A stretch of 64,000 nucleotides of DNA from Lachnospiraceae bacterium. Its GTDB lineage: Bacteria > Bacillota > Clostridia > Lachnospirales > Lachnospiraceae. Both the position numbers and the translations under genes were made by a program. Of the stretch, positions 6,774 to 31,494 are shown in pieces. The first letter of the stretch is position 1. Each line of letters starts with the position of its first letter. The notes beneath the pieces are model-generated. The model was not told where the DNA came from. It saw only the letters and a program-made list of their open reading frames with translations, and did not search any database. Where the stretch lies: contig JAFVHP010000048.1 in NCBI GenBank assembly GCA_017474455.1, forward strand, positions 62,001 to 126,000. The letters run 5' to 3'.

Positions 6774-6791
6774 ACGATCCCTCCAAAATGA

Positions 6792-8201
<1,410 letters not shown>

Positions 8202-8224
8202 TCAATAAACCAATGCAGCAGATA

Positions 8225-9160: not shown

Positions 9161-9177
9161 GAATTATCCTCCGTCAG

Positions 9178-10704
<1,527 letters not shown>

Positions 10705-10733
10705 TTATTCACATCCTCATGCTAAGAGCTGGT

Positions 10734-11782: not shown

Positions 11783-11819
11783 CCTCCTGTGTGATAACTA
11801 CGGATTCCTTCTCCTTTTA

Positions 11820-12898
<1,079 letters not shown>

Positions 12899-15453: not shown

Positions 15454-15915
15454 ATGTATGATTCATATCTGGTGGTAAAGGATACGCTGCAGAATGATGT
15501 TGAAAACGGAAAAACAGTCGGATTTTCATTCGGTGTAAGGCTGGCTAATTACAGGGGCATCTTTCTGTCTCTGGTAAACGGCTTTTATGTGGAAGTGGAC
15601 GGTAAAGTCTATAGTCGGGATGAGCAGACATTTGAGATCAACGGCAGGCCTGCCCGCTCCATGGACGAGATCGCCAAGTGCTATTGGGAGCACTGGGATA
15701 TGCAGGATATGGGCAGGGTGCACATCTTAGAAGAGGGAGGCCTTGCACCGGGTGAGCATAAGATCACGTATATGGAGTGCAATCTGGCATATTACGGGTA
15801 CCACGGCAAGGGATGCGACGATGAGATCTTCGTGAAGAACCCGCCGCAGCCCGGCGATCCGATGGGATCAGAGAAGACGCCGATAAAAAATGATTATGTT
15901 CTGGAGCTCAGGTAA
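15454..15915 (+). CDS. C-glycoside deglycosidase beta-subunit-like protein (DUF6379)
   Basis: A 153-residue, mostly beta protein of the DUF6379 family, the small subunit of C-glycoside deglycosidase complexes (as in DgpB-DgpC of puerarin-degrading gut bacteria). Visible family features are the LANYRGIFLSLVNGFYVEVDG core (compare IPYYRGVMLCLVKDAEVRIG in the paralogue at 28335) and the DEQTFEINGRPA segment. Such subunits form a beta-sandwich that closes the active site of the TIM-barrel alpha subunit encoded 13 bases downstream. AGGAGGGGG lies 5 bases before the ATG. The actual glycoside is unknown, and O-glycoside-acting relatives exist. Confidence 0.75.
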   Translation: MYDSYLVVKDTLQNDVENGKTVGFSFGVRLANYRGIFLSLVNGFYVEVDGKVYSRDEQTFEINGRPARSMDEIAKCYWEHWDMQDMGRVHILEEGGLAPGEHKITYMECNLAYYGYHGKGCDDEIFVKNPPQPGDPMGSEKTPIKNDYVLELR

Positions 15916-15928
15916 GGAGGAATAGAAA

Positions 15929-16996
15929 ATGGGGATCAAGAGAGGTGTATCGCTGTATTCATATCAACAGTCTGAATGGTTTGGCAGGATGACATGGAGA
16001 GATCAGCTGGAGGAAGTCGCGATGAACCTTGGAGGCGCAACCGGTATCGAGATCATCAGCGAAGCCACCATTCCGCAGTATCCATTTCCTTCTGAACAGT
16101 TTATCTTCGACTGGAATAATGAGATCGCAAGGTGGAACCTGAAGGCGGTCACAATGGACTGCTATCTGGATGTCATGCAGTTCCGGACGCATGTCATGAA
16201 TCATAAGGAAGCGGCACAGAGACTGATGTATGATCTGAGACTTGCCAAAAAGATGGGCTTTGAGAACATCCGTCTTGTCCACAGCGTCCCGCTTGAAGCG
16301 ATCGAGATGGCGCTGCCGCTCGCCGAGGAGCTGAACGTACGTATGACAAATGAGATCCATTCCCCGTATCCGATCACGGCGAACCTGAACCTGCCGGATG
16401 TCGATCATGCATTCATGGGCGCTGACTGGAAATACAGGCATTCCCAGGATATTGCCTTTATAGAGCGGACAGGGACGAAGCATTACGGTCTGCAGCCGGA
16501 TATGGGCATTTTCCAGTATCGGGCACCCAGACCCATGCTGGGGTATCTCCTGCGCAGTTACGTATCCGCGGAGGAAGCCGGCAGGATCGTGGATGAATAC
16601 TACAGAGTATTCGATGAAGCCGGGGAAAGCGCAGCGAATAAGTATATGGAAGACAGCTGCCCGGCAATCATGGAATCCAAATTCGGCTTCATGCTTTTCT
16701 CCGGTATGAGTGCAAGACCGGAAGAGTTATACAAGATCGCTCCTTATATCTACTGTATTCACGGCAAGTTCTACAAGATGACGGAGATTCCTGGAAAGCC
16801 CGGGCAGTATGAAGAGTCCTCCATCCGGTATCCGGAAGCGATCAAGGTCCTTAAGTCCATCGGTTATGATGGGTACATTGATTCCGAGTATGAAGGGCAG
16901 AGAAGCCAGCAGGATATGGGCGATGCCGGTCTTGCGGATGAGGTGGAAGAGGTCCGCAGGCATCATGAGATGCTGAAGAGGCTGATCGGGGAATAA
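15929..16996 (+). CDS. C-glycoside deglycosidase alpha-subunit-like TIM-barrel protein
   Basis: A 355-residue member of the sugar phosphate isomerase/epimerase (AP endonuclease 2-like) TIM-barrel superfamily. It starts KRGVSLYSYQQ, as does the paralogue at 27289. Likely divalent-metal ligands are Glu142, Asp191, His279 and Glu320; His144 in NEIHSP corresponds in position to the catalytic His of known deglycosidases. These enzymes cleave the C-C bond of a 3-keto C-glycoside by deprotonation and elimination. Compared with the paralogue it has a longer loop after EIHSPYP and another around residues 200-240. The partner beta subunit precedes it. Function by family and context; substrate unknown. 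Confidence 0.75.
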   Translation: MGIKRGVSLYSYQQSEWFGRMTWRDQLEEVAMNLGGATGIEIISEATIPQYPFPSEQFIFDWNNEIARWNLKAVTMDCYLDVMQFRTHVMNHKEAAQRLMYDLRLAKKMGFENIRLVHSVPLEAIEMALPLAEELNVRMTNEIHSPYPITANLNLPDVDHAFMGADWKYRHSQDIAFIERTGTKHYGLQPDMGIFQYRAPRPMLGYLLRSYVSAEEAGRIVDEYYRVFDEAGESAANKYMEDSCPAIMESKFGFMLFSGMSARPEELYKIAPYIYCIHGKFYKMTEIPGKPGQYEESSIRYPEAIKVLKSIGYDGYIDSEYEGQRSQQDMGDAGLADEVEEVRRHHEMLKRLIGE

Positions 16997-17040
16997 GAGC
17001 GTCAATAACGTAAGTCTATAGAATGTAAAGAAGGTCTGCC

Positions 17041-17095
17041 TGCCCTCAGGTGCGGTATAATAATTCTGTCAATGATTATCAGGCATTTGAGGGCA
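17041..17095 (+). promoter_or_regulatory. Promoter and inverted repeat before the LysR gene
   Basis: TGCCCTCA (17041-17048) and TGAGGGCA (17088-17095) are perfect inverted copies flanking a TATAAT (17056-17061); no good -35 box is seen. The right arm also supplies the ribosome site (GAGGG) of the LysR gene, so the element could act as an operator or as a leader stem that masks the ribosome site. Confidence 0.45.
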
Positions 17096-17101
17096 CCTTC
17101 T

Positions 17102-18001
17102 ATGCAGATCGAATACTTAATGGAATTTGCTGAATTATGCGACACCATGAACTATCTCCAGGCTGCCGAGAAGCTGTATATCTCGCAGTCCAATCTGTCC
17201 AGGCATATCCAGTCGATGGAAAAGGAACTGGGTGTTATGCTGTTCAAACGGACGAAGCGGAGAATTGAGATAACGGAGATGGGAGAATGCCTTCTCAGAT
17301 ATGCGAGAAAAATGTCGGCGGACTGGTCGGCTTTCTCGACGGAGATGCAGAAGCTGAACGCCGCAGCAGGCGGTATCCGCAGGATCTCCATCGGTTTTAT
17401 CGGGGCAATGGCACCATACAGTATCAATCATATCCTTTCAGAGTATCAGCTGGCGCATCAGGACTTTGCGATCAGACTTGTTACACTGCGCTGCGGAAAA
17501 GAACTGGAGATGCTGCAAAATGGCATCTGCGATATGGTGTTGATGAGCGGACGGGAGTATATGTCTCCGGAATACGAATCGGTAAAGGTGCTGGCAGACA
17601 TGGTCGTTGCCGTGACAAACAATGAGCATCCGCTTACGGCAAAGAAGACGCTGACGGTCAGCGACCTTGAACCTTACCCGATCGCTGTCATGGAGAGATT
17701 CATTAGGCCTGGGGATCCGTTCTACCAGGCATGCGCTGCTGCAGGTATAAAACTCACTTATCAGATCTCGGACGGATCCGACCTTCTGGACAGGGCAGCA
17801 GTTGCCGGGGAAGTATCGATCATGACGGCAAAGCCGGCCTCTTATTTTGCGGATGATTCCGTAACGATCATGCGGATCGTGCCAAAGATAGAGGTTCGGG
17901 CGGACCTTATATGCCTGCGTGAAAGCATGGCAAGAGAAGAGATCCTGTCCCTCATGGAATATCTGCGGTCGGAGGCAGTGCAGACAGTGATCAACAGCTG
18001 A
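17102..18001 (+). CDS. LysR-family transcriptional regulator
   Basis: A 299-residue LysR-type regulator. The N-terminal winged helix-turn-helix is clear (MQIEYLMEFAELCDTMNYLQ, AAEKLYISQSNLSRHIQSME) followed by a two-lobed effector-binding domain (RRISIGFIGAMAPYSINHIL onward). The ATG at 17102 is preferred to one 30 bases upstream because it matches the family N-terminus and has GAGGG 9 bases before it. It follows the deglycosidase alpha gene by 105 bases with its own -10 box, so it probably controls the cassette in response to an aglycone or glycoside. Confidence 0.9.
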   Translation: MQIEYLMEFAELCDTMNYLQAAEKLYISQSNLSRHIQSMEKELGVMLFKRTKRRIEITEMGECLLRYARKMSADWSAFSTEMQKLNAAAGGIRRISIGFIGAMAPYSINHILSEYQLAHQDFAIRLVTLRCGKELEMLQNGICDMVLMSGREYMSPEYESVKVLADMVVAVTNNEHPLTAKKTLTVSDLEPYPIAVMERFIRPGDPFYQACAAAGIKLTYQISDGSDLLDRAAVAGEVSIMTAKPASYFADDSVTIMRIVPKIEVRADLICLRESMAREEILSLMEYLRSEAVQTVINS

Positions 18002-18158
18002 ATATCTGCAGAGCAGTGATGACGAATCGTCCGTCCGGCGTCAGCCGGGCTGCCTCGACCTGTCCGTCTCCTGATAGGGGATAACTGTGCAGAAGGCTGC
18101 CGAAGAAGTTCGATACGATCACTTCGCGGTCATCGTGCCTGCCGCATAGCCAAAGTAT

Positions 18159-18164
18159 TATAAT
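18159..18164 (+). promoter_or_regulatory. Putative -10 box of the first RpiR gene
   Basis: TATAAT 42 bases before the ATG, with a weak -35 (GTGCCT 18135-18140, 18-base spacer). The gap 18002-18205 otherwise holds no plus-strand gene. Confidence 0.4.
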
Positions 18165-18205
18165 AATATTGTTGACAGGAAAACTATTCTGACCGAGGTG
18201 AGCGC

Positions 18206-18976
18206 ATGAATGTCCTCCAGAACCTGATCGAGATGTACAATCATCTTTCTCCTGACAGTACTTACAGGGAAGTGATAAGGCTCATACTCATGAATCTGAA
18301 AGAAGCAGCTGAGGCTACAGTCTATGACCTGGCGGAACTGACCTGTTCGTCCAGGACCACGATCAGCCGTCTTCTGGATAAGCTCGGCTACGGCAGCTAT
18401 GCGGAGTTCCATGAAGCCCTGCGGCAGGCCGTCAGGAATTATACATACTATAACCGGATCCTGCCCGCGCATGCCGGCCGGGAAGAGATCCTGCCGGAGC
18501 TTAAGAAACAGGCGGAAAGTGCAGCGCGGATCGAAAGTCCGGACATGTCGGAGGCAGCGCTTGCGGAAGTGTCGCAGGCCCTTCATGAAGCAGGGCAGGT
18601 ATTCTTTTATACGACAGCCTCCCGGAGCATCTCCTCGCTGCAGCAGAACCTGGCGATGGCCGGCATCGACACACTGAACCTGATGATCCTGCCGGAGCTT
18701 CTGCAGTGCGCAGGACAGGCCAGGGAGGGAAGCATCCTGTTCTGCAGGACCATAGAATACGCGGAGACGCAGGACCTGAGGCCGTTATTTGAAGCTTTTA
18801 AAGCACGGGGTACTTCTGTATATATGTTCGGAGGAGAGAAGACCCGGTACAGCAGGTACGTGGACAGATTTATCCTGAAGAACAGTACGGCAGAGGGAGC
18901 CATCGGCCTGCTCTTATCGGATGAACTGTATTTCTACGCCCTCAGTGAGACGTTCAGGAGAATGTATCTCGACTGA
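18206..18976 (+). CDS. MurR/RpiR-family regulator, cassette A
   Basis: A 256-residue RpiR-type regulator: N-terminal helix-turn-helix (VYDLAELTCSSRTTISRLLDKLGYGSY, about residues 40-66) and a C-terminal SIS-like domain that normally senses phosphosugars (VFFYTTASRSISSLQQNLAMAG). It is the same length as the RpiR protein at 30724 and aligns with it from the start (LIEMYNHLSPDSTY versus LIALYNQLPRDNVY), so the two are paralogues that each sit with one cassette. GAGGTGAG precedes the ATG. Confidence 0.85.
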   Translation: MNVLQNLIEMYNHLSPDSTYREVIRLILMNLKEAAEATVYDLAELTCSSRTTISRLLDKLGYGSYAEFHEALRQAVRNYTYYNRILPAHAGREEILPELKKQAESAARIESPDMSEAALAEVSQALHEAGQVFFYTTASRSISSLQQNLAMAGIDTLNLMILPELLQCAGQAREGSILFCRTIEYAETQDLRPLFEAFKARGTSVYMFGGEKTRYSRYVDRFILKNSTAEGAIGLLLSDELYFYALSETFRRMYLD

Positions 18977-19031
18977 CGGCTCGCCCGGCATAGCGGGCTG
19001 CGGAACAAAAATAATATATCGATCTTATTTC

Positions 19032-19076
19032 AGGACACAGATCTGAAGCCAAAGCTTCAATTCTGTGTCCTTTTTG
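19032..19076 (+). terminator. Intrinsic terminator after the RpiR gene
   Basis: AGGACACAGA and TCTGTGTCCT form the outer stem, with an inner GAAGC/GCTTC pair, followed by TTTTTG. Confidence 0.85.
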
Positions 19077-19186
19077 ATTTCCCTGAGTCCAATGACGCCA
19101 TATCCGCACGCGGCGGCGTTCCGGGACCTTTAAACTGAAGACTGTAAGAAACAGACAGGCAGTTAAAGCCGGAAGGAGGAGATCAG

Positions 19187-19963
19187 ATGAAATACAGTAT
19201 GTGCGCGGATATCATGTATGTCGGTGTCGGCAAGACGGGACCGATCTGGCCTGAAACGGAAGGCATTCTTGACGCGATGGACTTCGCGAAAAAAAACGGT
19301 CTTGATATGATCGAATTCTTCGGCTTTGAGGGAAGGGATCTGGACCGTATCGCCGCGAAAAGCCGTGAGCTGGATATGCCGGTGCTTTCGATAGTAGCAA
19401 AGGGCGGAGAGCTGCTCGGAAACAGGAACCGGTATCAGGAATTCCTTGACGGGTTCAAAGAGACCATTCCGGCGGCAAAGAAGCTTGGCGTAAAGGCGGT
19501 CGTCATTAACTGCAACAATGCCGATACCGACGTGCCCAGGCAGCAGGCGCTGGACCTGATCGCAAAGGGGCTGAAGGAAGTCGCGGGATCCGCGAAAGAA
19601 GCGGGCCTCGAGATCTGGCTGGAGGCAATATCCGGAGAGTATTTCAGAAGCTCTGCCGAGATCGTCTCGATCCTGGATGCCGTTAATGAAGAGAATGTAA
19701 AGATGCTCTTTGACATTTACCACTTCCAGATGATCGAAGGGAACATCTGCAGCCATCTTCATGATTATCTTGGAAAGATCGGGCACATCCACGGAGCGAA
19801 CGCGCCGGCCCGGTGCGAGCTCACAAAGGGCGAGCTGGACTACCGGTTCATCCTCGAATATCTGAAGAACGGACTTGGTTATGAAGGGACCTTCGGCCTG
19901 GAATTCTTCACCTTCACGGACCGTGAACAGAAAGTGGCAGATTCCTGCAGCATCCTTATATAA
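19187..19963 (+). CDS. Sugar isomerase/epimerase (hydroxypyruvate isomerase-like TIM barrel)
   Basis: A 258-residue protein of the same TIM-barrel superfamily as the alpha subunits but of the shorter hydroxypyruvate isomerase-like type. Probable metal ligands are Glu146 (WLEAIS), Asp176 (FDIYHFQ), His202 (HIHGANAP) and Glu239 (GLEFF). Its place between the deglycosidase genes and a Gfo/Idh/MocA oxidoreductase suggests it handles a keto- or dehydrated sugar released by the pathway; exact reaction unknown. A strong AAGGAGGAG site precedes the ATG. The gap before it (18977-19186) holds the terminator above and an unassigned imperfect inverted repeat around 19130-19167. Confidence 0.75.
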   Translation: MKYSMCADIMYVGVGKTGPIWPETEGILDAMDFAKKNGLDMIEFFGFEGRDLDRIAAKSRELDMPVLSIVAKGGELLGNRNRYQEFLDGFKETIPAAKKLGVKAVVINCNNADTDVPRQQALDLIAKGLKEVAGSAKEAGLEIWLEAISGEYFRSSAEIVSILDAVNEENVKMLFDIYHFQMIEGNICSHLHDYLGKIGHIHGANAPARCELTKGELDYRFILEYLKNGLGYEGTFGLEFFTFTDREQKVADSCSILI

Positions 19964-20015
19964 GAAAACAGCGAAAACTTATTATATTTCAAAATTCTGA
20001 AACGGAGGGAAAACA

Positions 20016-21083
20016 ATGAAGACTTTAAACATCGCTATCATCGGAACAGGAACCATCGCACGTGAAAAGCACATCCCCTGCCTCGTCAAAAGGGACGATG
20101 TGAAGATCACCGTACTCTGTGACATCGATACGGAGAAGGCGGAAGCGGTCAAAAAGGAATTCGGGCTCGACGACGCCGTGATCTGCGATGATTATCATAA
20201 GGTCTGCGCCGACCCCGATATCGACGTAGTCCATGTCCTTACACCCAACCCGCTCCACTGCCCGATCACGATCGAGGCACTGGAGAACGGCAAGCATGTC
20301 CACTGTGAAAAGCCCATGGCCTGCACCTATGCCGATGCCAGGAAGATGGTCGAGACCGCAAAACGCGTCGGAAAGAAGCTGACCAGCGGTACCCAGTGGA
20401 GATACCAGCCGGCCCCCATGAAGATGAAGGAGATGATCAAAGAAGGTAAGTTCGGTGACATTTACTACATCAAGTCTTCCCAGCTGCGCGGCAGACGCCT
20501 TCCCGCCTACGGTGTTTATACCAGTAAGACAGGAAACGGCGGCGGTATGCTGATGGACGGCGGCCCCCACTCCATCGACCTGCCCATGTGGCTGACGGAC
20601 AACTATGATGTCCAGAGCGTCCGCGGTGTGACCTTCGACAGGATGAAGAACCATACCGAAGGCAATGCTCTCGGCGCGTGGGATCCGGATCACTTTGATG
20701 TGGAAGATTCCTTCATGGCAATGATCACGATGAAAAACGGCATGCTGATCTATGTTGAATGCGCATGGGTCATCAACATGCTCCAGGAAGCGCCCGGAAT
20801 GACGGCTGCGATCGCGGGCACCAAGGCTGGCGCCGATATGGTCGGCCCCGGTTTTGAGAATCATGTGCGCGTCAATGAGATCGTGGACGGCAAGATGGTC
20901 ATTGATTCGATCGAATGTTCAGCAGACCAGTCCATGCACGAATATGACATCAATCACTGGATCGATGCCATCCAGAATGGCGGCGAACCCGCAGTCCTTC
21001 CGGAGCAGGCTGCAACGCTCGTCCGCGTGATCGAGGCGATCTACAAGTCCGCAGCGACCGGCCAGACGATCTTCTTTGACTGA
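20016..21083 (+). CDS. Gfo/Idh/MocA-family NAD(P)-dependent sugar oxidoreductase
   Basis: A 355-residue dehydrogenase with an N-terminal Rossmann fold (IGTGTIAREKHIPCL) and the family EKP motif at 98-100 (HCEKPMAC). The C-terminal domain holds MDGGPHSIDLPMW, where Asp181 and His185 fit the usual catalytic pair. In known C-glycoside pathways a protein of this family (DgpA-like) oxidises the sugar 3-hydroxyl to give the 3-keto substrate of the deglycosidase; that role is inferred here from the neighbourhood. It follows the isomerase gene by 52 bases and ends at a strong terminator, so the two are co-transcribed. Confidence 0.85.
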   Translation: MKTLNIAIIGTGTIAREKHIPCLVKRDDVKITVLCDIDTEKAEAVKKEFGLDDAVICDDYHKVCADPDIDVVHVLTPNPLHCPITIEALENGKHVHCEKPMACTYADARKMVETAKRVGKKLTSGTQWRYQPAPMKMKEMIKEGKFGDIYYIKSSQLRGRRLPAYGVYTSKTGNGGGMLMDGGPHSIDLPMWLTDNYDVQSVRGVTFDRMKNHTEGNALGAWDPDHFDVEDSFMAMITMKNGMLIYVECAWVINMLQEAPGMTAAIAGTKAGADMVGPGFENHVRVNEIVDGKMVIDSIECSADQSMHEYDINHWIDAIQNGGEPAVLPEQAATLVRVIEAIYKSAATGQTIFFD

Positions 21084-21110
21084 TCACTGCAGAATGGCTG
21101 AACAGGAACG

Positions 21111-21155
21111 AAACTGCCGGGGGATCATGGATACATGATCCCCCGGCAGTTTTCT
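21111..21155 (+). terminator. Strong intrinsic terminator of cassette A
   Basis: A perfect 18-base stem (21112-21129 with 21134-21151) with a GATA loop and a TTTT tail. Confidence 0.92.
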
Positions 21156-21286
21156 TATGAAATACGGATTTTGTACCGCACATTATGCACCGTGACCGAT
21201 ACAATACCGGAAATATGCATTATAATAGCCTTACTGCGATTTCAGTGCTGTCTGATCAGACAGCTGCATCAAAGGAGGAAATAGAG

Positions 21287-21856
21287 ATGTTCTGCACTGA
21301 ATGTGGAAAGATGCTGCCGGAAGGCAGTTTTGTATGTCCCGCGTGCGGTACGCCTGTGAGCGTTACCGGAACGGCCGGGGCGGCCGTTATGGCAAAGGCG
21401 CCGGAACCGGCAGAAACAACAGAAACAGCAGAAACAGCAGAAACAGCAGAAACAACTGCTGCTGTGCTGGAACAGGAACCGGAAGCTGAAACTGTATCTT
21501 CTGCGGTCTTGCCGGATGATACGGCTGATACGGCAGAAGATGATTCCGGCAGCCTGCATGAAGAATACACGGCATCATCTGCCCGGGTTCCCGAAGAGAC
21601 AGGGTCTTCCAGCGGTTTAGGTCTGTGCATTGCCGGCTTTATATTTTCACTGGCCGGCCTGTTTTTCTCCATCATCATGATAACGCTGTTCGCGGGCCTG
21701 ATCCTTTCCGGTATCGGAGTATCACTGGCCAGTAAGGACGAATCCGGAAATCATGCAGGCAGAGGCCTCGGAATAGCGGGCATCGTGATCTCGGTCGTCG
21801 GTATCCTTCTCAGGATATTCCTTATCTCCGCGCTGGTGGCGGTCTTTCGCGGCTGA
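21287..21856 (+). CDS. Zinc-ribbon membrane protein with Glu-Thr-Ala repeat linker
   Basis: A 189-residue protein. An N-terminal zinc ribbon (CTECGKMLPEGSFVCPACG, two CxxC pairs) is followed by an acidic low-complexity linker with five copies of a Glu-Thr-Ala/Thr triplet, then two C-terminal membrane helices with a Gly-rich loop (GLGLCIAGFIFSLAGLFFSI, GIAGIVISVVGILL) of the DUF4190 type. The role is unknown; such proteins are common in Firmicutes. The ATG at 21287 follows AAAGGAGG by 8 bases. It stands between two unrelated operons. Confidence 0.7.
   Translation: MFCTECGKMLPEGSFVCPACGTPVSVTGTAGAAVMAKAPEPAETTETAETAETAETTAAVLEQEPEAETVSSAVLPDDTADTAEDDSGSLHEEYTASSARVPEETGSSSGLGLCIAGFIFSLAGLFFSIIMITLFAGLILSGIGVSLASKDESGNHAGRGLGIAGIVISVVGILLRIFLISALVAVFRG
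21411..21455 (+). repeat. Five tandem 9-base repeats inside the zinc-ribbon gene
   Basis: CAGAAACAA or CAGAAACAG repeated five times without interruption, in frame, encoding the Glu-Thr-Ala/Thr linker. Copy-number changes would alter linker length in steps of three residues without breaking the frame. Confidence 0.9.
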
Positions 21857-21909
21857 GCCGCTTGGGCCGGGCGGCAGGGTATACAGGGTATACAGGGTAT
21901 ACCGGCTCA
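21854..21909. repeat. Three 9-base tandem repeats inside an inverted repeat
   Basis: GGGTATACA occurs twice (21877-21894) and is followed by GGGTATACC (21895-21903). The block is flanked by TGAGCCG (21854-21860) and CGGCTCA (21903-21909), which overlap the stop codons of the two convergent genes. It may serve as a shared transcription stop, although no T run is present. Confidence 0.7.
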
Positions 21910-22299: not shown

Positions 22300-22374
22300 G
22301 TTCATATCTCCATCTGATCCTCCCGCCAAAGACTGCGGGAGACCATACTTTATCAGAATCAGTCTTATTCCGGG

Positions 22375-23673
22375 TCAGTCTTCAAGCTTGATCGTGATCT
22401 CTTTTGTGTCAGGATAAGAGAGCAGCTTTTCCTTTGTCAGTACGACCTGCTCCATTTCGCCGGGAGCCAGGACGCGTTTCTTCTGCCTGCTGATCCGTTC
22501 GCTGCCGAAATAAACACTGACATAGCGGTCGCGGTAGTTATTGTCCACGCGGAATCTCACGGTAAGTTTATCATCCATTCCGGAAGGATGGATGTATTGC
22601 GGAACGGTGTAACGGACGCCGCCTTCCGCCTTTAGAACGACAGCGGCCGTATCTTTTTCGAGATCCTGTCCGGAGGAGAGGAAACGGGCGGCGCTCCTGC
22701 CGGCTCTGGCAGCTTCCTCGGACACGTAATCGACCAGGTCATGGACGTGCAGCACGTTGCCGCAGGCAAAGACGCCGGGGATATCTGTTGAAAGGGATTC
22801 ATCCACATCGGGTCCTCCGGTCACCCTGTTCATGGTGATGCCGGCCGCCCTGGACAGTTCGTTCTCGGGCAGCAGGCCGCAGGAGAGCAGCAGCGTGTCA
22901 CAGGGATAGTATTTCTCCGTTCCGGGTATCGGGCTGCGGTGTTCATCCACCTCCTGGATCGTGACGCCTTCGATGTGGTCACGCCCGTGGATATTAGTGA
23001 CCGTATGGGAGAGCAGCAGCGGGATGCCATAGTCCTGGAGGCACTGGACGATATTTCTCTTTAAGCCGCCGGAATAGGACATCAGTTCCGCAACAGCGCT
23101 GACATGGGCTCCTTCCAGCGTCATCCGCCTGGCCATGATCAGGCCGATATCGCCGGATCCCAGGATAACGACTTCTTTGCCGATCTTTTTGCCTTCTATA
23201 TTCATCAGTCTCTGCGCCGTTCCGGCGGTATAGATGCCGGCAGGCCGGTAGCCGGGAATGGAAAGCGCGCCCCTGGGGCGTTCTCTGCATCCCATGGCCA
23301 GGATAACGGCGCCTGCATCGATCAGGCTGACCCCCTCCCTGCTTATGCAGGTGATCCTCCTGTCCCTGGAAATATCCGTAACGATGGTACCGAGCCGGCA
23401 GGGAATGTTTTCTTCCTGCACTCTGCGGATGTATCTGGCGGCGTATTCGGGACCCGTCAGCTCTTCGCCGAAGGTATGGAGACCGAAACCGTTATGGATG
23501 CACTGGTTCAGGATGCCGCCCGGCTGACTGTCGCGTTCGATGATCAGGATATCCCGGACGCCGCTCTCCCTGGCGGACGCAGCTGCTGCGAGACCGGCGG
23601 GACCGCCCCCGACGATGACAAGTTCATGTTTTTCAATTGGAAGATTATTTGCAGACATATTCCTGATCCTCAT
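22375..23673 (-). CDS. FAD/NAD(P)-dependent oxidoreductase of the glycerol-3-phosphate cluster
   Basis: A 432-residue pyridine nucleotide-disulfide oxidoreductase-type flavoprotein. The FAD fold is at residues 18-30 (VIVGGGPAGLAAAASA), the NAD(P) fold follows EVVILGSGDIGLIMARRM, and VFACGNVLHVHDLVD is the second FAD signature. No redox-active CxxxxC is present. A C-terminal beta domain of about 90 residues follows. The usual partner of the GlpA-like protein upstream; it probably passes electrons from glycerol-3-phosphate to NAD(P) or another acceptor. Its ATG overlaps the upstream stop (ATGA); an internal ATG at 23658 is possible. Confidence 0.85.
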   Translation of the reverse strand: MRIRNMSANNLPIEKHELVIVGGGPAGLAAAASARESGVRDILIIERDSQPGGILNQCIHNGFGLHTFGEELTGPEYAARYIRRVQEENIPCRLGTIVTDISRDRRITCISREGVSLIDAGAVILAMGCRERPRGALSIPGYRPAGIYTAGTAQRLMNIEGKKIGKEVVILGSGDIGLIMARRMTLEGAHVSAVAELMSYSGGLKRNIVQCLQDYGIPLLLSHTVTNIHGRDHIEGVTIQEVDEHRSPIPGTEKYYPCDTLLLSCGLLPENELSRAAGITMNRVTGGPDVDESLSTDIPGVFACGNVLHVHDLVDYVSEEAARAGRSAARFLSSGQDLEKDTAAVVLKAEGGVRYTVPQYIHPSGMDDKLTVRFRVDNNYRDRYVSVYFGSERISRQKKRVLAPGEMEQVVLTKEKLLSYPDTKEITIKLED

Positions 23674-25154
23674 TCTTCTTTCATGAGAAGCTCTGAACCG
23701 GGACGGTTCTTGCAGACTTCTTCTTCGGGAATGCCGAGTTCCCTGGCAAGGATCGCCATGGCGGCAGGAGTACAGAAGCCTGCCTGGCAGCGTCCCATGC
23801 CCTGGCGGACACGGCGTTTGATCCCGTCCATGGAGACAGCCCCCGGCGTACGGCGGATGGCATCTTTGATCTCACCGGCGGAAATGTTCTCACAACGGCA
23901 GATGATAACCCCGAAGTCGGGGTCTTTTCTGATCAGAGCATCCCGTTTGTCGGCCGGAAGTTCGCCCGCGTGGATAAAGCCCCTGCGCCTTGTAACGATC
24001 TCTTTCCTGTCTTTATGCACGGCTTTGGAAAGCCCGCTCTTTCTCAGATAGTTCACGATCCTGCGGGCAAGGTAGTCACCGAGCGCCGGCGATGCAGATA
24101 AGCCCGGGGATTCGACACCGGCCGCGTCAAAGAAGCCTTTCGCGTCCGCAGGTTCGCCCAGGATGAAGTCGCCTCTCTTCGTATGCGCCCTGAGCCCGGC
24201 AAAGCCTGTGATCGTCTGTCCGTAGGGTACGGAAGGGACGGAAAGGAGGGCGGTAGACCTGATCTCCGCAAGGCCTTTTGCCGTGATATTGGTCTCTTCA
24301 GCCGAACCCACATCCTCCGCATTGGGACCGATGAGCAGATTGCCGTGGACCGTGGGAGTGACCAGGACACCCTTGCCGAGAGCGCTCGGAAGCTGGAAGA
24401 TCGTATGCGAGACCAGGCTGCCGGCCGTTTTATCCAGGATCAGGTATTCGCCGCGCCTGGGGATCACTTCCAGCTTATCCTCTGATACCATGTTATGGCA
24501 GACGTCCGAATACAGCCCGGCAGCATTGACGACGGTGCGGGTATCCACTTCTTCCTCATTGCCGGAAGCGTCACGGAAAGTGACCTTATAGAGGCTGTGG
24601 TCTGCCTTTTCTATCCTGATGACCTCTGTCAGGAAACGGAAACGGGCGCCGTTCGCAGCCGCGTTTTCCGCAAATGCGGCCGTCATCTGGAAAGGACAGA
24701 CGATGCCGGCGGTGGATGCCAGCATGGCCATGGTCACTTCTTTGGACAGGGCGGGCTCGAGTTTCCTGGCTTCGTCGCCGGACATGAGCGTCAGCCCTTC
24801 AACGCCGTTGGCGATCCCGCGCTCATACAGCGCTTTAAGACCGGGCTCGTCTTCCCTGCGGAAGCAGAGGACCATAGATCCGTTCTGCTTATAGGGAAAA
24901 TCCAGCTCCCTTGAGAGCCGGGGGAGCATTTTCGCCCCTTTTACATTGAGCTTTGCCTTCAGCGTGCCCGTCTCGGCGTCAAAGCCGGCGTGAATGATGG
25001 CGCTGTTGGCCTTGGAGGTGCCGCTGCAGACGTCCTCCTCCTTTTCCAGGACCAGGATGTCGAGATCATACCGGGAAAGGCTCCTGGCAATACTGCAGCC
25101 TGTCACGCCTGCCCCGATGATCACCGCGTCCATGATACTTTTCTTTTTATTCAT
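23670..25154 (-). CDS. Glycerol-3-phosphate dehydrogenase-like FAD protein with [2Fe-2S] domain
   Basis: A 494-residue flavoprotein. The N-terminal DAO fold has VIIGAGVTGCSIARSLSRY and the substrate-side signature GTSKANSAIIHAGFD. The C-terminal 90 residues form a BFD-like [2Fe-2S] domain with Cys in VIICRCEN and GMGRCQAGFC. This layout matches the anaerobic GlpA type and related 2-hydroxy-acid oxidising flavoproteins; adjacency to glycerol kinase favours glycerol-3-phosphate as substrate, giving dihydroxyacetone phosphate. It lies 40 bases after glpK. Confidence 0.85.
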   Translation of the reverse strand: MNKKKSIMDAVIIGAGVTGCSIARSLSRYDLDILVLEKEEDVCSGTSKANSAIIHAGFDAETGTLKAKLNVKGAKMLPRLSRELDFPYKQNGSMVLCFRREDEPGLKALYERGIANGVEGLTLMSGDEARKLEPALSKEVTMAMLASTAGIVCPFQMTAAFAENAAANGARFRFLTEVIRIEKADHSLYKVTFRDASGNEEEVDTRTVVNAAGLYSDVCHNMVSEDKLEVIPRRGEYLILDKTAGSLVSHTIFQLPSALGKGVLVTPTVHGNLLIGPNAEDVGSAEETNITAKGLAEIRSTALLSVPSVPYGQTITGFAGLRAHTKRGDFILGEPADAKGFFDAAGVESPGLSASPALGDYLARRIVNYLRKSGLSKAVHKDRKEIVTRRRGFIHAGELPADKRDALIRKDPDFGVIICRCENISAGEIKDAIRRTPGAVSMDGIKRRVRQGMGRCQAGFCTPAAMAILARELGIPEEEVCKNRPGSELLMKEE

Positions 25155-25194
25155 AAGTCCTCACAATCCTGTGTAAACCGATTGCCCGGCATGT

Positions 25195-26675
<1,481 letters not shown>

Positions 26676-26692
26676 GATGACCTCCCGTGTTA

Positions 26693-27067
26693 TCAGATCT
26701 CTTTTTTCCAGAGGCCATGCAGGTTGCAGTACTCGTAAGCAGCCACTGCCTTATCGCCTTCCGTGAGTGCAAAGGACACCTCGGGAGCAGATCCGGGGCT
26801 TAAGACTTTGCGCTGCGCGCCTTCGGCAGTCTCCAGCGCTACCCACATGATATGATGTTCTTCGAGCATGGGATGGTCGACCTCGCCGACTCTGACTTTC
26901 ACGGTATTTCCCTCGACCGTAACGGCAGGCACATGCTTCTCATGGGCACCGTCGCTGGTATTTGCGATCATTTCTTCCATCGGCTGGTCACAGCAGTAGG
27001 TGTCACATCTTGAAGGACGAACCATTCCGACGATCTTTCCGCACTTTGAACAGATATAAAATTTCAT
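26693..27067 (-). CDS. Desulfoferrodoxin-type superoxide reductase
   Basis: A 124-residue two-domain (class I, 2Fe-SOR) superoxide reductase. The N-terminal rubredoxin-like FeCys4 site is CSKC plus CC (in YCCDQPM). The C-terminal active site has [17 protein letters not shown] and YCNLHGLW, supplying the four His and one Cys that bind the catalytic iron; the Glu-Lys pair before the first His is conserved. It reduces superoxide to hydrogen peroxide without making oxygen, as expected in an anaerobe. The ATG at 27067 follows GGGGG by 6 bases. It is the first gene of the glycerol operon. Confidence 0.95.
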
Positions 27068-27127
27068 GAGCAACCCCCTTTATCGATCATTTGCTGTATA
27101 TATCAGTATTTGTGAATGCTTTTACTT

Positions 27128-27156
27128 ATTATAGCCTAACTGGCGGTTCTGTAACA
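27128..27156 (-). promoter_or_regulatory. Putative promoter of the superoxide reductase-glycerol operon
   Basis: On the minus strand TATAAT (27133-27128) lies about 60 bases before the ATG; the -35 (TGTTAC, 27156-27151, 17-base spacer) is weak. Confidence 0.5.
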
Positions 27157-27203
27157 GGAGGGAGTGAACGGACATAGCAGCGTCCGGCAGTTTATAAGCA
27201 GCT

Positions 27204-27237
27204 AAAAGGCGCTGCCACTGATTTCGTGACAGCGCCT
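27204..27237 (-). terminator. Intrinsic terminator of deglycosidase cassette B
   Basis: In the minus-strand transcript AGGCGCTG and CAGCGCCT form the stem, extended by CAC/GTG across one mismatch, and are followed by TTTT. It lies 50 bases after the alpha-subunit gene. Confidence 0.85.
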
Positions 27238-27288
27238 CGTATCGGCTTTATTGAGTGTACTTCAGTTTAAGCGTCCTGAGATCCCTTA

Positions 27289-28296
27289 TTAATTCTTTGC
27301 ATACTGTCTGATCAGCCTGTCCAGCAGTACCTGGTGGCGCCTCACCTGTTCGATCTCGTCCTCTACATAGTCACAGCCCTCGTCATGATAAAGACGCTGG
27401 CCTTCGAACTCGGTCGAGATGTAGCCGTCCCAGTCTGCCTGGGAGAGGGTCTTTATGACATTCGGATAATCGATCGTCGTCTCGTTGCAGTCCTCGTCCA
27501 GCTGGTGGCACTTGCCGTGGAAGTGAAGGATATACTTCATCAGCGGCAGAAGAGAGGCGGGATCGTTGTAGGTCGGAAGACCGCCCATGGAGGAGGCCAG
27601 ACCGATCTCGCGTTCGGAGGCGCCCATCGCTTTGAGCTTGGCAACGGTCTCCTTTACAGGACGGCCGTCCCTGACCTGGTCGCGGATGAGCCAGGCGGCT
27701 TCGGGACTGATGCCGGAGCGGATCTGCTGCTCTACGGCAGGATCACAGGCATGTTTCGCGAAGATGCCGAAATCGGGGATCAGGCCTGCCCACTGGGTGT
27801 TGTTCCGTTCGATCATTTCCACATATCCGTCGATATAGGGGGAATCGATCATAACGGGCGGATGGATCTCGGTACCCATCTTGACGCCGTAGTACTCTGC
27901 GATGGGAAGAGCGGCTTCGATCACGTCAAAGTGTATCTTGCAGAGTACGCGGATGACGGGGAAACCGAGGTCGTGGGCGAGCTTTAAGTCCCTTTCCAGG
28001 AAAGCGACCTGTTCTTTCAGGGTAAGATAGCGCTTCCTGTCGCGGAACATTTTAAAATCGATAAAAGTATCCATGCAGGTCGGAGTCACATTGAATTCCT
28101 GCATCAGGTCCTTCCACCAGTCGATATCTTTCTGGCGGTTGGTGGGGAAACTTCCGACAGGCATCTGCTCGGGAATGAGTTCGATACCTTCGGCGCCTGT
28201 TTTGGCGGCTTCCGCCACACAGCCGCGCAGGTCGAGCTGGCCGAGATAATAGGCCTGCTGGTAGCTGTATAATGAAATACTTCTTTTGATAGCCAT
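27289..28296 (-). CDS. C-glycoside deglycosidase alpha-subunit-like TIM-barrel protein, cassette B
   Basis: A 335-residue paralogue of the protein at 15929; both begin with IKR then SLYSYQQ. Likely metal ligands are Glu143, Asp175, His260 and Glu296, and His145 in TEIHPP sits at the position of the catalytic His known in deglycosidases. The C-terminal helix (DEIEQVRRHQVLLDRLIRQY) is also shared. The loop after the EIH motif is shorter than in the cassette A protein, so the two probably prefer different glycosides. It follows its beta subunit by 38 bases. Function from family and context. Confidence 0.75.
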   Translation of the reverse strand: MAIKRSISLYSYQQAYYLGQLDLRGCVAEAAKTGAEGIELIPEQMPVGSFPTNRQKDIDWWKDLMQEFNVTPTCMDTFIDFKMFRDRKRYLTLKEQVAFLERDLKLAHDLGFPVIRVLCKIHFDVIEAALPIAEYYGVKMGTEIHPPVMIDSPYIDGYVEMIERNNTQWAGLIPDFGIFAKHACDPAVEQQIRSGISPEAAWLIRDQVRDGRPVKETVAKLKAMGASEREIGLASSMGGLPTYNDPASLLPLMKYILHFHGKCHQLDEDCNETTIDYPNVIKTLSQADWDGYISTEFEGQRLYHDEGCDYVEDEIEQVRRHQVLLDRLIRQYAKN

Positions 28297-28334
28297 AATT
28301 ATTCCTTTCGATCCGGATCAGAAGAATGCCGGCA

Positions 28335-28754
28335 TTACCTGCAGATACCGCCGGAAGCGGACCTGTCATAGCTCATATGGGCCCATGTGAGGCCGTTAAA
28401 GCCGGGGTTATAGGAAACGAGGATCGCGATGCCTACCGCGATGTCGGTAGGACCGTATTCCGGAAGACCGTTCGTCAAAGGGACATAGAGTTCAGCTTTT
28501 TCGCCGAATTCCCAACGGACGGAAGTGATGGTGGCCATATCATCGAAATAGTATTCTTCGCCGCCTACGATGAATTTCATCTGGTCGGAAGTAAAGACCT
28601 GGTTTCCAATGCGGACTTCTGCGTCTTTGACAAGGCAGAGCATGACGCCGCGGTAGTAGGGGATCCTGACTTTGATCTTAATGCCTTCGATCACGCCGTT
28701 GTTCACGACGTTTTCGATCTTGTCTTCAGGATCCAGCATGAATTTTTCGTACAT
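28335..28754 (-). CDS. C-glycoside deglycosidase beta-subunit-like protein (DUF6379), cassette B
   Basis: A 139-residue DUF6379 protein. Shared with the paralogue at 15454 are PYYRGVMLCLVKDAEVRIG and the Asp-Asp plus Trp-Glu segment MATITSVRWEFGE (compare MDEIAKCYWEHWD). It ends with GLTWAHMSYD, near where partner contacts occur in known complexes. AAAGGAG lies 6 bases before the ATG at 28754, so a longer upstream start is unlikely. Beta then alpha is the order in both cassettes. Confidence 0.75.
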   Translation of the reverse strand: MYEKFMLDPEDKIENVVNNGVIEGIKIKVRIPYYRGVMLCLVKDAEVRIGNQVFTSDQMKFIVGGEEYYFDDMATITSVRWEFGEKAELYVPLTNGLPEYGPTDIAVGIAILVSYNPGFNGLTWAHMSYDRSASGGICR

Positions 28755-28770
28755 TACAGACTCCTTTCGG

Positions 28771-28813
28771 AAAAAAGGCTGCCGCACATAACGGTGATTA
28801 TGTGCGGCAGCCT
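28771..28813 (-). terminator. Partial terminator between the binding-protein gene and the deglycosidase genes
   Basis: AGGCTGCCGCACATAA pairs with TTATGTGCGGCAGCCT around a 6-base loop (28776-28813), followed in the minus-strand transcript by six T. As the downstream genes have no visible promoter of their own, it probably lowers their expression relative to the binding protein. Confidence 0.85.
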
Positions 28814-28861
28814 GTCTCAGTCAATATTCAGAGGATCAAACTCCAAACATTAATCCGGCAA

Positions 28862-30493
28862 TTACTGTGCTGCCTTCCATGCATCGAGCTGTTCCTGATA
28901 AGCGGCAAGGTATTCGTCAGAACCGGCGCCCTTCAGTTCGCTCAGATACGCATCATATTCGGCATCGTCGTAAACACCGCAGAGGATGTCGCCCTTATAC
29001 TTGTCGACAACAGAGGTAAGCGCTGTCATGACGTTGTTCAGGTCGGACTGGTCGCAGGTGAAGCCGAGGAAAGGAGAAATGGGAGCGGAGGTGAGATAGT
29101 CATAGGCTCTCTCTCTGAAGTCCGCGCCGTTGCCCTTCCAGGGATATGCGTTGAAGTAGTTGCCGAATACGAAATCCGCGCCGTGATAGCTGACAGATTC
29201 AGTTGTAACGCCTTCAGGGAAATCAGCTTCGCCGTCAACAATGACATAGTCCTTGCCTTCTTCACCCCAGATGATGAGGTTCTCGAGAACGGGATCTGTC
29301 ATCAGGCAGTTGATCCAGCGGATCGCAGCTTCGGGTTCCTGAGCGGTTACGGGAACGCCGAGGCCGAACTTGTTGATATAGGAGGAGCTTAACAGGTTCT
29401 TGGAAAGCTCTACGCAGACTACTTCGTAGCCTGTGGCTTCCTGCTTGGAGACTTCTACGCCCATCTCGGATGTTTCGACTGCGGAGAAGACAACGCCTGC
29501 CTTGATCAGAGTGTCGATGTGGTCGTCGGTGATAACGGAATCTTTGTAGACCCATCCGTTGTTGTACCACTCACGTACTCTGTCCTGCTGCTCGCGGAAT
29601 GCGGGATTCTCGGGAAGAAGTGAGATAACGCCGTCATTGTCGGAGAAAACGATGTTCATGATGTCGCCGAGAGCGTCGAAGGACGTGACGTCTGCGAAAG
29701 CTTCGCCGCCATAGATGTTGCCGGTCTGCATAAGGACGTTCTTGGTCTGGCCGATGGGAGAGATGCTGCCGAGGTCATTGACAGCAGCGAGGACTTCTTC
29801 GACTTCCGCCCATGTCGTCATGTTCTGTGCAAGGTCAAGGACGCCGGCTTCTTCCAGGATATCTTTTCTCATGATGAGATAGATGCCGCTGGCATAGTTG
29901 CGGTAGCAGGGGACACCGTAGATGGCGCCGTTGACGGACATGCCGTTGATATAATCACCGACGAGTTCCAGTGTTTCCTGGCCGTCCTCTTCCAGATATT
30001 CGGTGATATCCATCAGCTGGGAATTACCGATCATGGAAGTGAAGCTGGCAGGATCCCTGGGGATGATGCTGCAGACATCGAGCTGTTCGCCGCTGGCGAT
30101 CTCAAGGCCTACCTGTGTCGGATAGTCGCCGCCGCCTGCCCAGTGGACATTGGCAACAACGCCTGCTTTGGCTGCTGTGATCTCATTCATCGCGTCGATG
30201 ATGGGACCTGCGTTTTCGCTGACACCGCGAAGGTCGTAAAGAAGGACGTTGATCTCGTCAACATCACCTGTCCATCCTTCGGCAACTTCTTCAGCTGCTT
30301 CAGCAACTTCTTCTACTGCTTCCTCGGCAGCTTCTTCAGCTGCTTCGGCAACTTCTTCGACTGCTTCCTCAGCGGCTTCTTCAACAGCGGGAGCTGCTGC
30401 GGGAGCGGCACCCTGGTCAGCTGCGCCGCATCCGGCGAGGGCAGCTGCGGCAAGAATGCCTGCAAGTACTACTGATAATACTCTTTTCTTCAT
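28862..30493 (-). CDS. ABC sugar-type solute-binding lipoprotein with Glu/Ala repeat linker
   Basis: A 543-residue extracellular binding protein. A signal peptide ends in the lipobox LAGC (Cys22), followed by an acidic linker of about 50 residues containing two copies of a 15-residue Glu/Ala/Val repeat, then a family 1 binding fold (EINVLLYDLRGVSENAGPII onward; long form as in LplA/oligosaccharide-binding proteins). It likely captures a glycoside for import. No permease or ATPase gene is present nearby, so it must use a transporter from elsewhere. GGGGG lies 4 bases before the ATG. It heads cassette B, and a partial terminator follows. Confidence 0.88.
   Translation of the reverse strand: MKKRVLSVVLAGILAAAALAGCGAADQGAAPAAAPAVEEAAEEAVEEVAEAAEEAAEEAVEEVAEAAEEVAEGWTGDVDEINVLLYDLRGVSENAGPIIDAMNEITAAKAGVVANVHWAGGGDYPTQVGLEIASGEQLDVCSIIPRDPASFTSMIGNSQLMDITEYLEEDGQETLELVGDYINGMSVNGAIYGVPCYRNYASGIYLIMRKDILEEAGVLDLAQNMTTWAEVEEVLAAVNDLGSISPIGQTKNVLMQTGNIYGGEAFADVTSFDALGDIMNIVFSDNDGVISLLPENPAFREQQDRVREWYNNGWVYKDSVITDDHIDTLIKAGVVFSAVETSEMGVEVSKQEATGYEVVCVELSKNLLSSSYINKFGLGVPVTAQEPEAAIRWINCLMTDPVLENLIIWGEEGKDYVIVDGEADFPEGVTTESVSYHGADFVFGNYFNAYPWKGNGADFRERAYDYLTSAPISPFLGFTCDQSDLNNVMTALTSVVDKYKGDILCGVYDDAEYDAYLSELKGAGSDEYLAAYQEQLDAWKAAQ
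30297..30386 (-). repeat. Two 45-base tandem repeats in the binding-protein linker
   Basis: Near-identical 45-base units (30297-30341 and 30342-30386) encode two 15-residue Glu/Ala/Val repeats. A partial third copy follows at 30281-30296. Confidence 0.8.
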
Positions 30494-30522
30494 ATTACCC
30501 CCTTTAGTGGTTTGAGTTTTTA

Positions 30523-30677
30523 CACAGCCTCAAAGACGGGAGAAGGCTGTGCAAAGGTTACTTACAATAAAATTTTAGTTTAGTTGCCGGCTCTGGACCA
30601 TATCCGCCTCGGATACAAGACAACAATTGCGGTTGTTTCATATCAAAAACTGATATAAAATATCTGTTAAAGATATA
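30523..30677. promoter_or_regulatory. Divergent regulatory region of cassette B with several palindromes
   Basis: The gap between the binding-protein gene and the divergent RpiR gene holds TATCCG-3-CGGATA (30601-30615), ATATCA-5-TGATAT (30640-30656) and ATATCT-5-AGATAT (30660-30676), all operator-like. A minus-strand promoter may use TGGTCC (30600-30595) and TAAAAT (30577-30572), 17 bases apart. CACAGCCT (30523-30530) and AGGCTGTG (30544-30551) make a leader hairpin in the binding-protein mRNA. The RpiR protein next door is the obvious candidate reader. Confidence 0.55.
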
Positions 30678-30723
30678 TCTGCGTATCAGCAGGTCAAATG
30701 AACAAAAAGGGAAAATTGGCCAA

Positions 30724-31494
30724 ATGACTATACTTCATGACCTCATCGCGCTTTACAACCAGCTTCCCAGAGACAATGTCTATTCGCTGGTCATTGTCTG
30801 TATCCTGCAGAATCTTTCCAGGATCCCGGTGCTTTCACTGGAACAGACGGCCGAACTGTGCGGAGTCAGTCCCATAACGATAAGCAGGCTGCTCAAAAAG
30901 CTTTCCTGCAGTTCATACCGGATATTCAAACAGCAGATCGCCGACGTCGTGGATGCCTATCCCAAATATAACCGTGTTATCCCGATCCCGATGCTGGATC
31001 CGGATAATGCAACGGACAGCTACCTGGACTGTATCCTGCATGAACTGGAGGATCTGAAAAAAGAGATTGACAGGGATGCGCTGAAAAATGCCTGTGCTAT
31101 GATACACGGCGCGGATATTGTGCATTTCTGCGATATGTATGCCAGAGGGCATTCCAAAAGACAGTTCCAGGCCGATCTGTGGATGGACGGCAAAGTGGTG
31201 CAGTGCCACGGTGCCCCCGGCGACTGTGTATATGAGGGCGGCAGCAGCGTCATGCTGGTCACGGTGCTGGCTGCATCCAAGAATTACGGGGACCTGGTCC
31301 GTGCGGTCAGGGGTCTGCACAAGGCCGGGATGAAGTGCGTCATCATCGCTTCATCGTCCACGCCGGCCGGGATCAGTGAAAACGCCGATATCATGATCCG
31401 TTTCCGCGGCCTCGACAGCGCGGCCGACAATATCCTGATCGACACTATCTACAATCTTCTGTGCATCAATTACAGGGCTTCCTACATGGACTAG
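30724..31494 (+). CDS. MurR/RpiR-family regulator, cassette B
   Basis: A 256-residue RpiR regulator with an N-terminal helix-turn-helix (LEQTAELCGVSPITISRLLKKL, about residues 39-60) and a SIS-type sensor domain (DIVHFCDMYARGHSKRQFQ, then MLVTVLAASKNYGDLVRAV). It is a paralogue of the protein at 18206. Divergent orientation to the binding-protein/deglycosidase genes across a palindrome-rich gap is typical of a local regulator. Only three bases separate its stop from the end of the convergent methyltransferase gene, and no terminator is seen there. Confidence 0.88.
   Translation: MTILHDLIALYNQLPRDNVYSLVIVCILQNLSRIPVLSLEQTAELCGVSPITISRLLKKLSCSSYRIFKQQIADVVDAYPKYNRVIPIPMLDPDNATDSYLDCILHELEDLKKEIDRDALKNACAMIHGADIVHFCDMYARGHSKRQFQADLWMDGKVVQCHGAPGDCVYEGGSSVMLVTVLAASKNYGDLVRAVRGLHKAGMKCVIIASSSTPAGISENADIMIRFRGLDSAADNILIDTIYNLLCINYRASYMD

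Follow-up and report, generated by a model that had tools for sequence, protein, structure and literature searches.

Two C-glycoside deglycosidase-type cassettes among 33 CGDB gene places in a Lachnospiraceae genome

The window examined here, a stretch of 64,000 nucleotides from a Lachnospiraceae bacterium (assembly GCA_017474455.1, contig JAFVHP010000048.1, positions 62,001 to 126,000, forward strand), carries between its positions 15,454 and 31,494 two gene cassettes, A and B, each with a beta subunit containing a DUF6379 (CGDB, PF19906) domain and a TIM-barrel alpha subunit of the C-glycoside deglycosidase (CGD) type. Judging from the sequences, each cassette probably encodes a heteromeric, metal-dependent 3-keto-glycoside beta-eliminase of the DgpBC/DfgAB family, and the two would form part of an arsenal of 33 beta and 34 alpha subunits, many of them old or derived from other clostridia, some as bare alpha-beta units. 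The original prediction had described two paralogous cassettes in one region; the paralogy is real, but the cassettes are merely two of the 33 CGDB places genome-wide.

The two cassettes and their catalytic site

The beta subunits of both cassettes match PF19906 over its cut-off, as do all 33 places in the genome, and the two alpha subunits retrieve an identical set of eight Protein Data Bank (PDB) sequences, with 8qvc the best in either case (1.4e-42 for alpha A, 7e-61 for alpha B). These eight are CGD alpha chains, or chains solved with or fused to a DUF6379 domain, so that the two beta plus alpha pairs first proposed stand, as do the families and the pathway (DgpA, then DgpB-DgpC) named for them.

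According to Mori et al. 2021 (PMC8563793), the metal is bound by E147, D179, H269, K271 and E305, mutation of which greatly cuts activity, and H149, aided by E307, is proposed as the base (all in AgCGD2 numbering). The equivalent residues of alpha A (E142, H144, D191, H278, K280, E320 and E322) are conserved. Loss of the metal site had been considered as a way in which the original prediction might fail, and the site turned out to be fully conserved in both alphas. Indeed, the seven metal and catalytic residues are identical in 34/34 alphas of this genome (MAFFT alignment, mapped by motif onto alpha A), and likewise in all 50 rows when both window alphas are aligned with 48 proteins from named loci. 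Conservation extends to the most divergent pair (L031:8940-10453, on contig C10), which has a 238-aa beta with CGDB in its C-terminal half only and a 266-aa alpha that keeps all seven residues.

The two alphas are 36% identical and, as had been noted, differ in length (355 against 335 residues) and in the loop after the EIH motif, with an H149-D179 spacing of 47 against 30, which makes the loop of alpha A 17 residues longer than that of alpha B. A longer loop (spacing 36-47, as opposed to 25-31 in the short-loop class to which alpha B belongs) occurs in eight of the 34 own alphas, alpha A included. It is also found in 33 of the 50 rows of the alignment with proteins from named loci, among them those of Catenibacillus scindens and Anaerobium acetethylicum, and therefore marks a widespread type rather than a feature private to cassette A. 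Using the D179-H269 distance, 25 of the 34 alphas, including A and B, have a lid-length segment (80-103), and nine do not (32-41). In eight of the nine lid-less pairs the alpha gene precedes the beta gene, an order which among the unfused lid-bearing pairs is seen only at C11:32.8.

A YRG motif runs through the betas of this genome (tyrosine in 33/33, arginine in 30/33, glycine in 31/33). Tyr39 of the beta subunit has been discussed as a possible base (Bitter et al. 2023, PMC10628242), and the YRG tyrosine corresponds to position 39 of DgpB if the match to DgpB is gap-free, the number being deduced from the match range. As for pairing, 20 of the CGD gene units are beta-alpha, nine are alpha-beta and four are fused (the beta at C26:264.6 was placed by hand). 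Alphas outnumber betas by one because a single beta has an alpha on either side, and 32 of the 33 betas adjoin or are fused to an alpha, the exception being C19:132.9, counted among the 20 beta-alpha units, where a fused gene separates the beta from its assigned alpha. Three of the fusions are alpha-beta and one is beta-alpha (C19:133.5 kb), and both kinds also exist in other genomes. On C19 this gives three successive genes on one strand (L021:8921-11983), for a beta, a beta-alpha fusion and an alpha, resembling a nested pair.

Gene calls in the window agree with the coordinates given earlier for both cassettes, which contain the following genes.

15454..15915, plus strand: cassette A beta subunit, DUF6379/CGDB, 153 aa (PF19906 E=2.3e-33; PDB matches 9m3a_B, DfgB and DgpB; YRG-motif tyrosine present)
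15929..16996, plus strand: cassette A alpha subunit, CGD-type TIM barrel, 355 aa (PDB 8qvc 1.4e-42; lid-length segment; all seven catalytic residues)
17072..18001, plus strand: LysR-type regulator, cassette A (PF00126 and PF03466)
18206..18976, plus strand: RpiR-like regulator A (PF01418, HTH_6, 28.9 bits, barely over the cut-off of 28.3)
19187..19963, plus strand: xylose-isomerase-like (hydroxypyruvate isomerase-like) TIM barrel, cassette A (PF01261, AP_endonuc_2, 4.2e-29)
20016..21083, plus strand: DgpA-clade Gfo/Idh/MocA protein, putative glycoside 3-dehydrogenase, cassette A (PDB DgpA1 9m3d 5.7e-86, DgpA 7xr9 1.9e-85)
27289..28296, minus strand: cassette B alpha subunit, CGD-type TIM barrel, 335 aa (PDB 8qvc 7e-61; AP_endonuc_2; catalytic residues kept)
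28335..28787, minus strand: cassette B beta subunit (PF19906 9.5e-25; PDB DfgB 1.1e-11; likely start ATG at 28754)
28862..30493, minus strand: extracellular solute-binding lipoprotein, cassette B (Pfam SBP_bac_8 and DUF3502)
30724..31494, plus strand: RpiR-like regulator B, oriented divergently to the lipoprotein, beta and alpha genes (PF01418 22.1 bits, under the cut-off of 28.3; matches RpiR-like A)

Thus, Pfam confirms the genes that had been assigned to cassette A beyond the pair (LysR, AP_endonuc_2 TIM barrel, Gfo/Idh/MocA enzyme), as well as the binding lipoprotein of cassette B. The equal gene order that had been claimed is correct in that both pairs run beta-alpha, although those of cassette B lie on the minus strand. 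The start codon of beta B is probably the ATG at 28754 and not the GTG at 28787; DNA similarity to a relative also stops at 28754. An RpiR paralogue had been assigned to each cassette; the two proteins do match each other (E 3e-13), but only A passes the PF01418 cut-off. No third match was found among the genes called in the window and 23 further stretches of this genome, and the restriction of such RpiR-like proteins to these two cassettes within the loci examined suggests a mode of regulation that the other pairs do not have.

Copy number, divergence and exchange of the gene pairs

In this genome (2.6 Mb) PF19906 is found at 33 places, all above the cut-off, together with 34 alphas. The domain was not detected in any of 14 control genomes, and among 40 other relatives it was present in one, as a single copy. 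It was found in 15 of 391 other genomes of an order-level sample (14 over the cut-off) and in three of 397 of a phylum-level sample, with at most two copies per genome in either. These samples overlap in some genomes, and both searches scored 11 of the window genome's own candidates, so that high counts there are lower bounds. Sixteen genomes picked for their CGD loci have between one and 25 CGDB places: 25 in the metagenome-assembled genome SIG488, 16 in another such genome, CO.O101 bin 251, 14 in C. scindens, eight in A. acetethylicum and one to six in the rest.

Recent amplification within the genome was rejected as the main source of the 33, given that identities between its own alphas have a median of 27% and a maximum of 77% (BLAST-reported pairs). 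Local duplication of A into B was likewise rejected in view of their 36% identity and their separate clades in the alpha tree. For 25 of the 34 alphas the best match lies outside this genome. In a quick maximum-likelihood tree of 143 of the 145 alphas (two of <=230 residues being left out), the own alphas split into 30 own-only clades, with support of at least 80 at 100 of 141 nodes, and cassettes A and B fall in different parts of the tree. As far as their sequences indicate, the own alphas are old paralogues.

Could such a count have arisen through chimerism or contamination in the metagenome assembly? The 51 contigs would speak for it, as would the failure to find CGDB in all but one of 24 other genomes from the same genus, but we consider this scarcely credible. 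The genome is 96.55% complete with 1.3% contamination, and contigs with CGD pairs also bear genes for MurA and BirA (C11), PPDK (C41) and FeoB (C30). The CGD genes have a G+C content of 51.8%, against 53.7% for their neighbours, with a hexamer score at least equal to that of the neighbours, and counts of 14-25 recur in three of the 16 other genomes picked for CGD loci. For the contig of cassette A, the one for which a kinship marker was checked, a protein about 5 kb away that we take to be AtpA (window 9181-10704) is 84-87% identical in four of five genomes of the same genus (54% for the best match in the fifth). A further question is whether the paralogues were inherited vertically and evolve slowly, in which case their likeness to those of SIG488 would reflect constraint rather than transfer. 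The same broad alpha clades do occur in several clostridia, a tandem of two pairs (C30_18.9 and C30_20.2) is also a tandem in SIG488 (L092), and the C26_262.0 and C26_264.6 pairs lie near each other there too (L085), with their order altered. Since the AtpA-like protein has no match in SIG488, translation GTPases served as the core yardstick, their labels (EF-G, RF3, IF2, and likewise those of the small str-operon proteins) being our presumption. Against SIG488, identity is 66% for the EF-G-like protein, 61, 66 and 56% for three other large GTPases, 64% for the RF3-like protein, 47% for the IF2-like protein, and 69 and 76% for two small str-operon proteins. The closer C. scindens (EF-G-like 80%) gives nine reciprocal alphas at 39-80%, median 69%, whereas the farther SIG488 gives twelve, at 88, 81, 78, 78, 76, 73, 70, 64, 62, 62, 47 and 31%, i.e. 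about 70-88% in seven of them, while the non-CGD genes common with SIG488 in the sampled loci are at most 70% identical. Purely vertical descent is thus, in our view, unlikely.

The boundaries of similarity point the same way. DNA similarity to SIG488 is confined to CGD genes, covering one alpha-beta pair or a tandem of pairs: cassette B, whose alpha is 78% identical to a SIG488 protein, aligns over 27310-28754 only (against L032). In the seven most similar pairs, none of the non-CGD genes seen flanking them in SIG488 has its counterpart in the corresponding position of this genome (the L096 comparison begins at a contig end). These boundaries suggest that the alpha-beta pair is a unit exchanged among clostridia. 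The pattern fits horizontal movement of such units. Transposase and integrase families are absent from the 25 commonest neighbour families shown, where single ones would not appear. Carriage by phages is unsupported, as no relative was found in viral_contigs (A2 query) and no match in a phage collection (alpha B query). Plasmids of other genera do carry distant relatives of CGD alphas, none of which reaches 60% identity (23 records). The 15 of these that are listed (H1-H15), at 31-38% identity, come from Novosphingobium, Sphingobium, Croceicoccus, Deinococcus, Niallia and Pantoea. Some plasmids have three or four CGD alpha places, and three of the 23 records are predicted to be conjugative.

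Neighbourhoods were scanned for 133 of 134 proteins of at least 150 aa within three genes of a CGD pair (one at a contig edge was left out), in two sets for each of which the 25 commonest families were considered. DUF3502 lipoproteins are the commonest neighbour family (7/67 and 4/66), accounting for 11 of the 21 DUF3502 places in the genome. Five neighbours (three and two in the two sets) have a GH39 domain. The four of them that were inspected singly, at L018:11045-13609, L028:11481-13931, L021:14926-17385 and L009:3763-5991, are AraC-type regulators with a Glyco_hydro_39 domain, beside or close to CGD pairs, and this glycosidase-like domain may be a sensor. In the window itself, cassette A is preceded by what we take, from sequence reading, to be an ATP-synthase-like gene set (4539-12898). 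Directly after it (21185-21856) comes a gene whose product resembles a membrane protein; this has two CxxC motifs near the N terminus, in the manner of a zinc ribbon, and a TAETAETAET repeat. The region between the cassettes (22375-27073) contains, by sequence reading, a glycerol-kinase-like gene and two FAD-oxidoreductase-like genes, and also a desulfoferrodoxin-like protein (131 bits, cut-off 147).

Pathway and substrates

The Gfo/Idh/MocA protein of cassette A scores 290-292 bits against both DgpA chains and 110 bits against the next PDB match, and it was on score and identity that membership of the DgpA clade was judged. The claim that the oxidoreductase is present only once, and may serve both cassettes, holds genome-wide for this clade: one such enzyme was found, and the next of 13 own matches is 32% identical. 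PF01408 has 15 places in the genome, 14 of them above the cut-off; two distant Gfo/Idh/MocA proteins still have DgpA as their best PDB match, weakly (97 and 80 bits), and further 3-oxidases may exist in the genome. Relatives of the cassette A oxidase at 65-69% identity occur in C. scindens, CO.O101 bin 251, A. acetethylicum and the Lachnospiraceae metagenome-assembled genome ABMPRH_302_1, with further ones at 41-46%. Oxidation at C3 of glucosides with 3-oxo-glucose as acceptor is known for DgpA and D3dgpA; the latter accepts numerous C- and O-glucosides and regenerates its NAD by means of a 3-oxo-glucoside (PMC11239390), and this breadth means that one oxidase could feed many glucoside lyases.

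Such pathways have been described as sharing a sequence of four steps, in which oxidation and elimination are followed by hydration and then reduction; the probable hydratase is a second sugar-isomerase-like protein (PMC10628242). We infer a corresponding cycle here. The DgpA-like dehydrogenase of cassette A would oxidize C3 of the glucoside. The EIH histidine of an alpha-beta lyase, whose active site would lie at the subunit interface and whose metal is probably Mn2+, would then take the C2 proton, with expulsion of the aglycone. Hydration of the resulting 2-hydroxy-3-keto-glucal would yield 3-keto-glucose, which the DgpA-like enzyme would reduce to glucose with its bound NADH, making the cycle redox-neutral. 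The TIM barrel at 19187-19963, which scores 93 bits against TIGR03234 (far under the cut-off of 353) and weakly matches ygbM, epimerases and a 3-keto-D-glucoside 4-epimerase in PDB, could be the 2-hydroxy-3-keto-glucal hydratase, an enzyme of the AtHYD type, or else a sugar isomerase, so that cassette A may encode all four activities. Cassette B would supply only the beta-alpha lyase pair and an import lipoprotein, next to its divergent RpiR-like regulator, and would have to borrow an oxidase.

As to what the alphas do, one may consider that they are ordinary sugar or sugar-phosphate isomerases, with DUF6379 as an accessory. The fold is the same, and AP_endonuc_2 is matched by alpha B (alpha A has no Pfam match at 0.001). 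However, a profile of 29 of the 34 own alphas (all but the fused ones and that of C10) gives 221-361 bits for the eight CGD-type PDB sequences and 61 for the next, a xylose-isomerase-like protein, for which reason an unrelated isomerase family was rejected and this alternative is very improbable. Nor did the other outcome that would have spoken against the original prediction, best matches to an unrelated isomerase family lacking DUF6379 pairing, come about: the nearest solved relatives are CGD-type and DUF6379-paired. It is a serious possibility, even if not the one we favor, that 3-keto-O-glycosides (from O-glucosides of plant phenols or the like) are the chief substrates of these enzymes, C-glycoside cleavage being minor or absent. 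PuCGE cleaves 3-keto O- and C-glucosides alike, and its authors ask whether scarce natural substrates fit the spread of the family (PMC10628242); 33 lyases would indeed be hard to account for by C-glycosides alone. On the other hand, most 3-oxo-O-glucosides, those of kaempferol excepted, lose their aglycone without a lyase (PMC11239390), and a lyase is therefore less needed for them; full conservation of the catalytic residues does not discriminate here. More tentatively still, the genome might be that of a broad 3-keto-glycoside specialist with a hub-and-spoke arrangement, in which one promiscuous glucoside 3-oxidase, that of cassette A, primes many glycosides and more than 30 exchangeable alpha-beta lyases, many gathered from other clostridia as bare two-gene units, each free a different aglycone class; we regard this as possible but doubtful.

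Several points weigh against our preferred view of an arsenal of 3-keto-glycoside beta-eliminases acquired in part as bare pairs. CGDB was not found in 23 of 24 same-genus genomes, many of them incomplete; the genomes used for alpha identities and for the tree were chosen because they carry CGDs; and 41 of the 141 tree nodes have support below 80. Loss of synteny over a long divergence could partly mimic transfer of bare two-gene units. SIG488, with its 25 CGDBs, yielded no DgpA-clade enzyme in a partial bin of about 1.6 Mb (best match 32%), and other oxidases may therefore feed such lyases. D3dgpA itself is active on glucosides only, and not on galactosides, rhamnosides or glucuronides (PMC11239390). 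Finally, the protein at 19187-19963 would fit the hydratase slot by fold and position only, its curated-family scores being far below the cut-offs.

Comparison with known systems

Puerarin is one of the plant C-glycosides whose aglycones CGDs set free, and the question has been raised of why the family should be so widespread if its substrates are scarce (PMC10628242). The chemistry and the family are thus already known, and both cassettes are sound new members. What appears to be new is how large the set is, its seeming imbalance (about 33 lyases for a single oxidase of the DgpA clade), the alpha-beta fusions and the signs that the pair serves as a unit of transfer. With 33 strongly diverged pairs whose catalytic residues are all intact and a single DgpA-clade oxidase, the question of CGD spread takes a testable form, and exchange of the alpha-beta pair as a unit, which the similarity boundaries suggest, would matter for predicting flavonoid metabolism from metagenomes.

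Among the closest precedents, DgpABC of the intestinal strain PUE (PuCGD; PDB 7bvr, 7xr9), has the same adjacent CGDB beta and TIM-barrel alpha, an identical catalytic set and a lid-length segment, and its DgpA resembles the Gfo/Idh/MocA enzyme of cassette A. Cassette A differs from it by the longer loop that follows EIH and by encoding, in addition, a Hyi-like TIM barrel together with regulators of the LysR and RpiR-like kinds. Cassette B is without an oxidase, and there are 33 pairs in the genome. DfgAB of Eubacterium cellulosolvens (EuCGD; PDB 7bvs) has a lid-less alpha, as do nine of the 34 own alphas, eight of them in pairs of alpha-beta order, whereas cassettes A and B are both lid-bearing. 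The single-chain protein of 8qrz/8un2 (435 aa) is a beta-alpha fusion like that at C19:133.5 kb, while the three other own fusions are in the reverse, alpha-beta order. The C-deglycosylation sets of C. scindens and C. decagia likewise comprise several dgpBC pairs, with dgpA often apart from dgpBC. At a 33% identity threshold, C. decagia is credited with six dgpBC plus DfgAB and 11 DgpA, and C. scindens with four dgpBC and three DgpA (PMC11170127). In C. scindens (L101-L112), the family profile finds 14 beta domains where that threshold gave four pairs, two of the 14 being alpha-beta fusions. Searches limited to listings of open-licence papers turned up no CGD set larger than that of C. decagia, against which the present genome has 33 CGDB places and one DgpA-clade enzyme.

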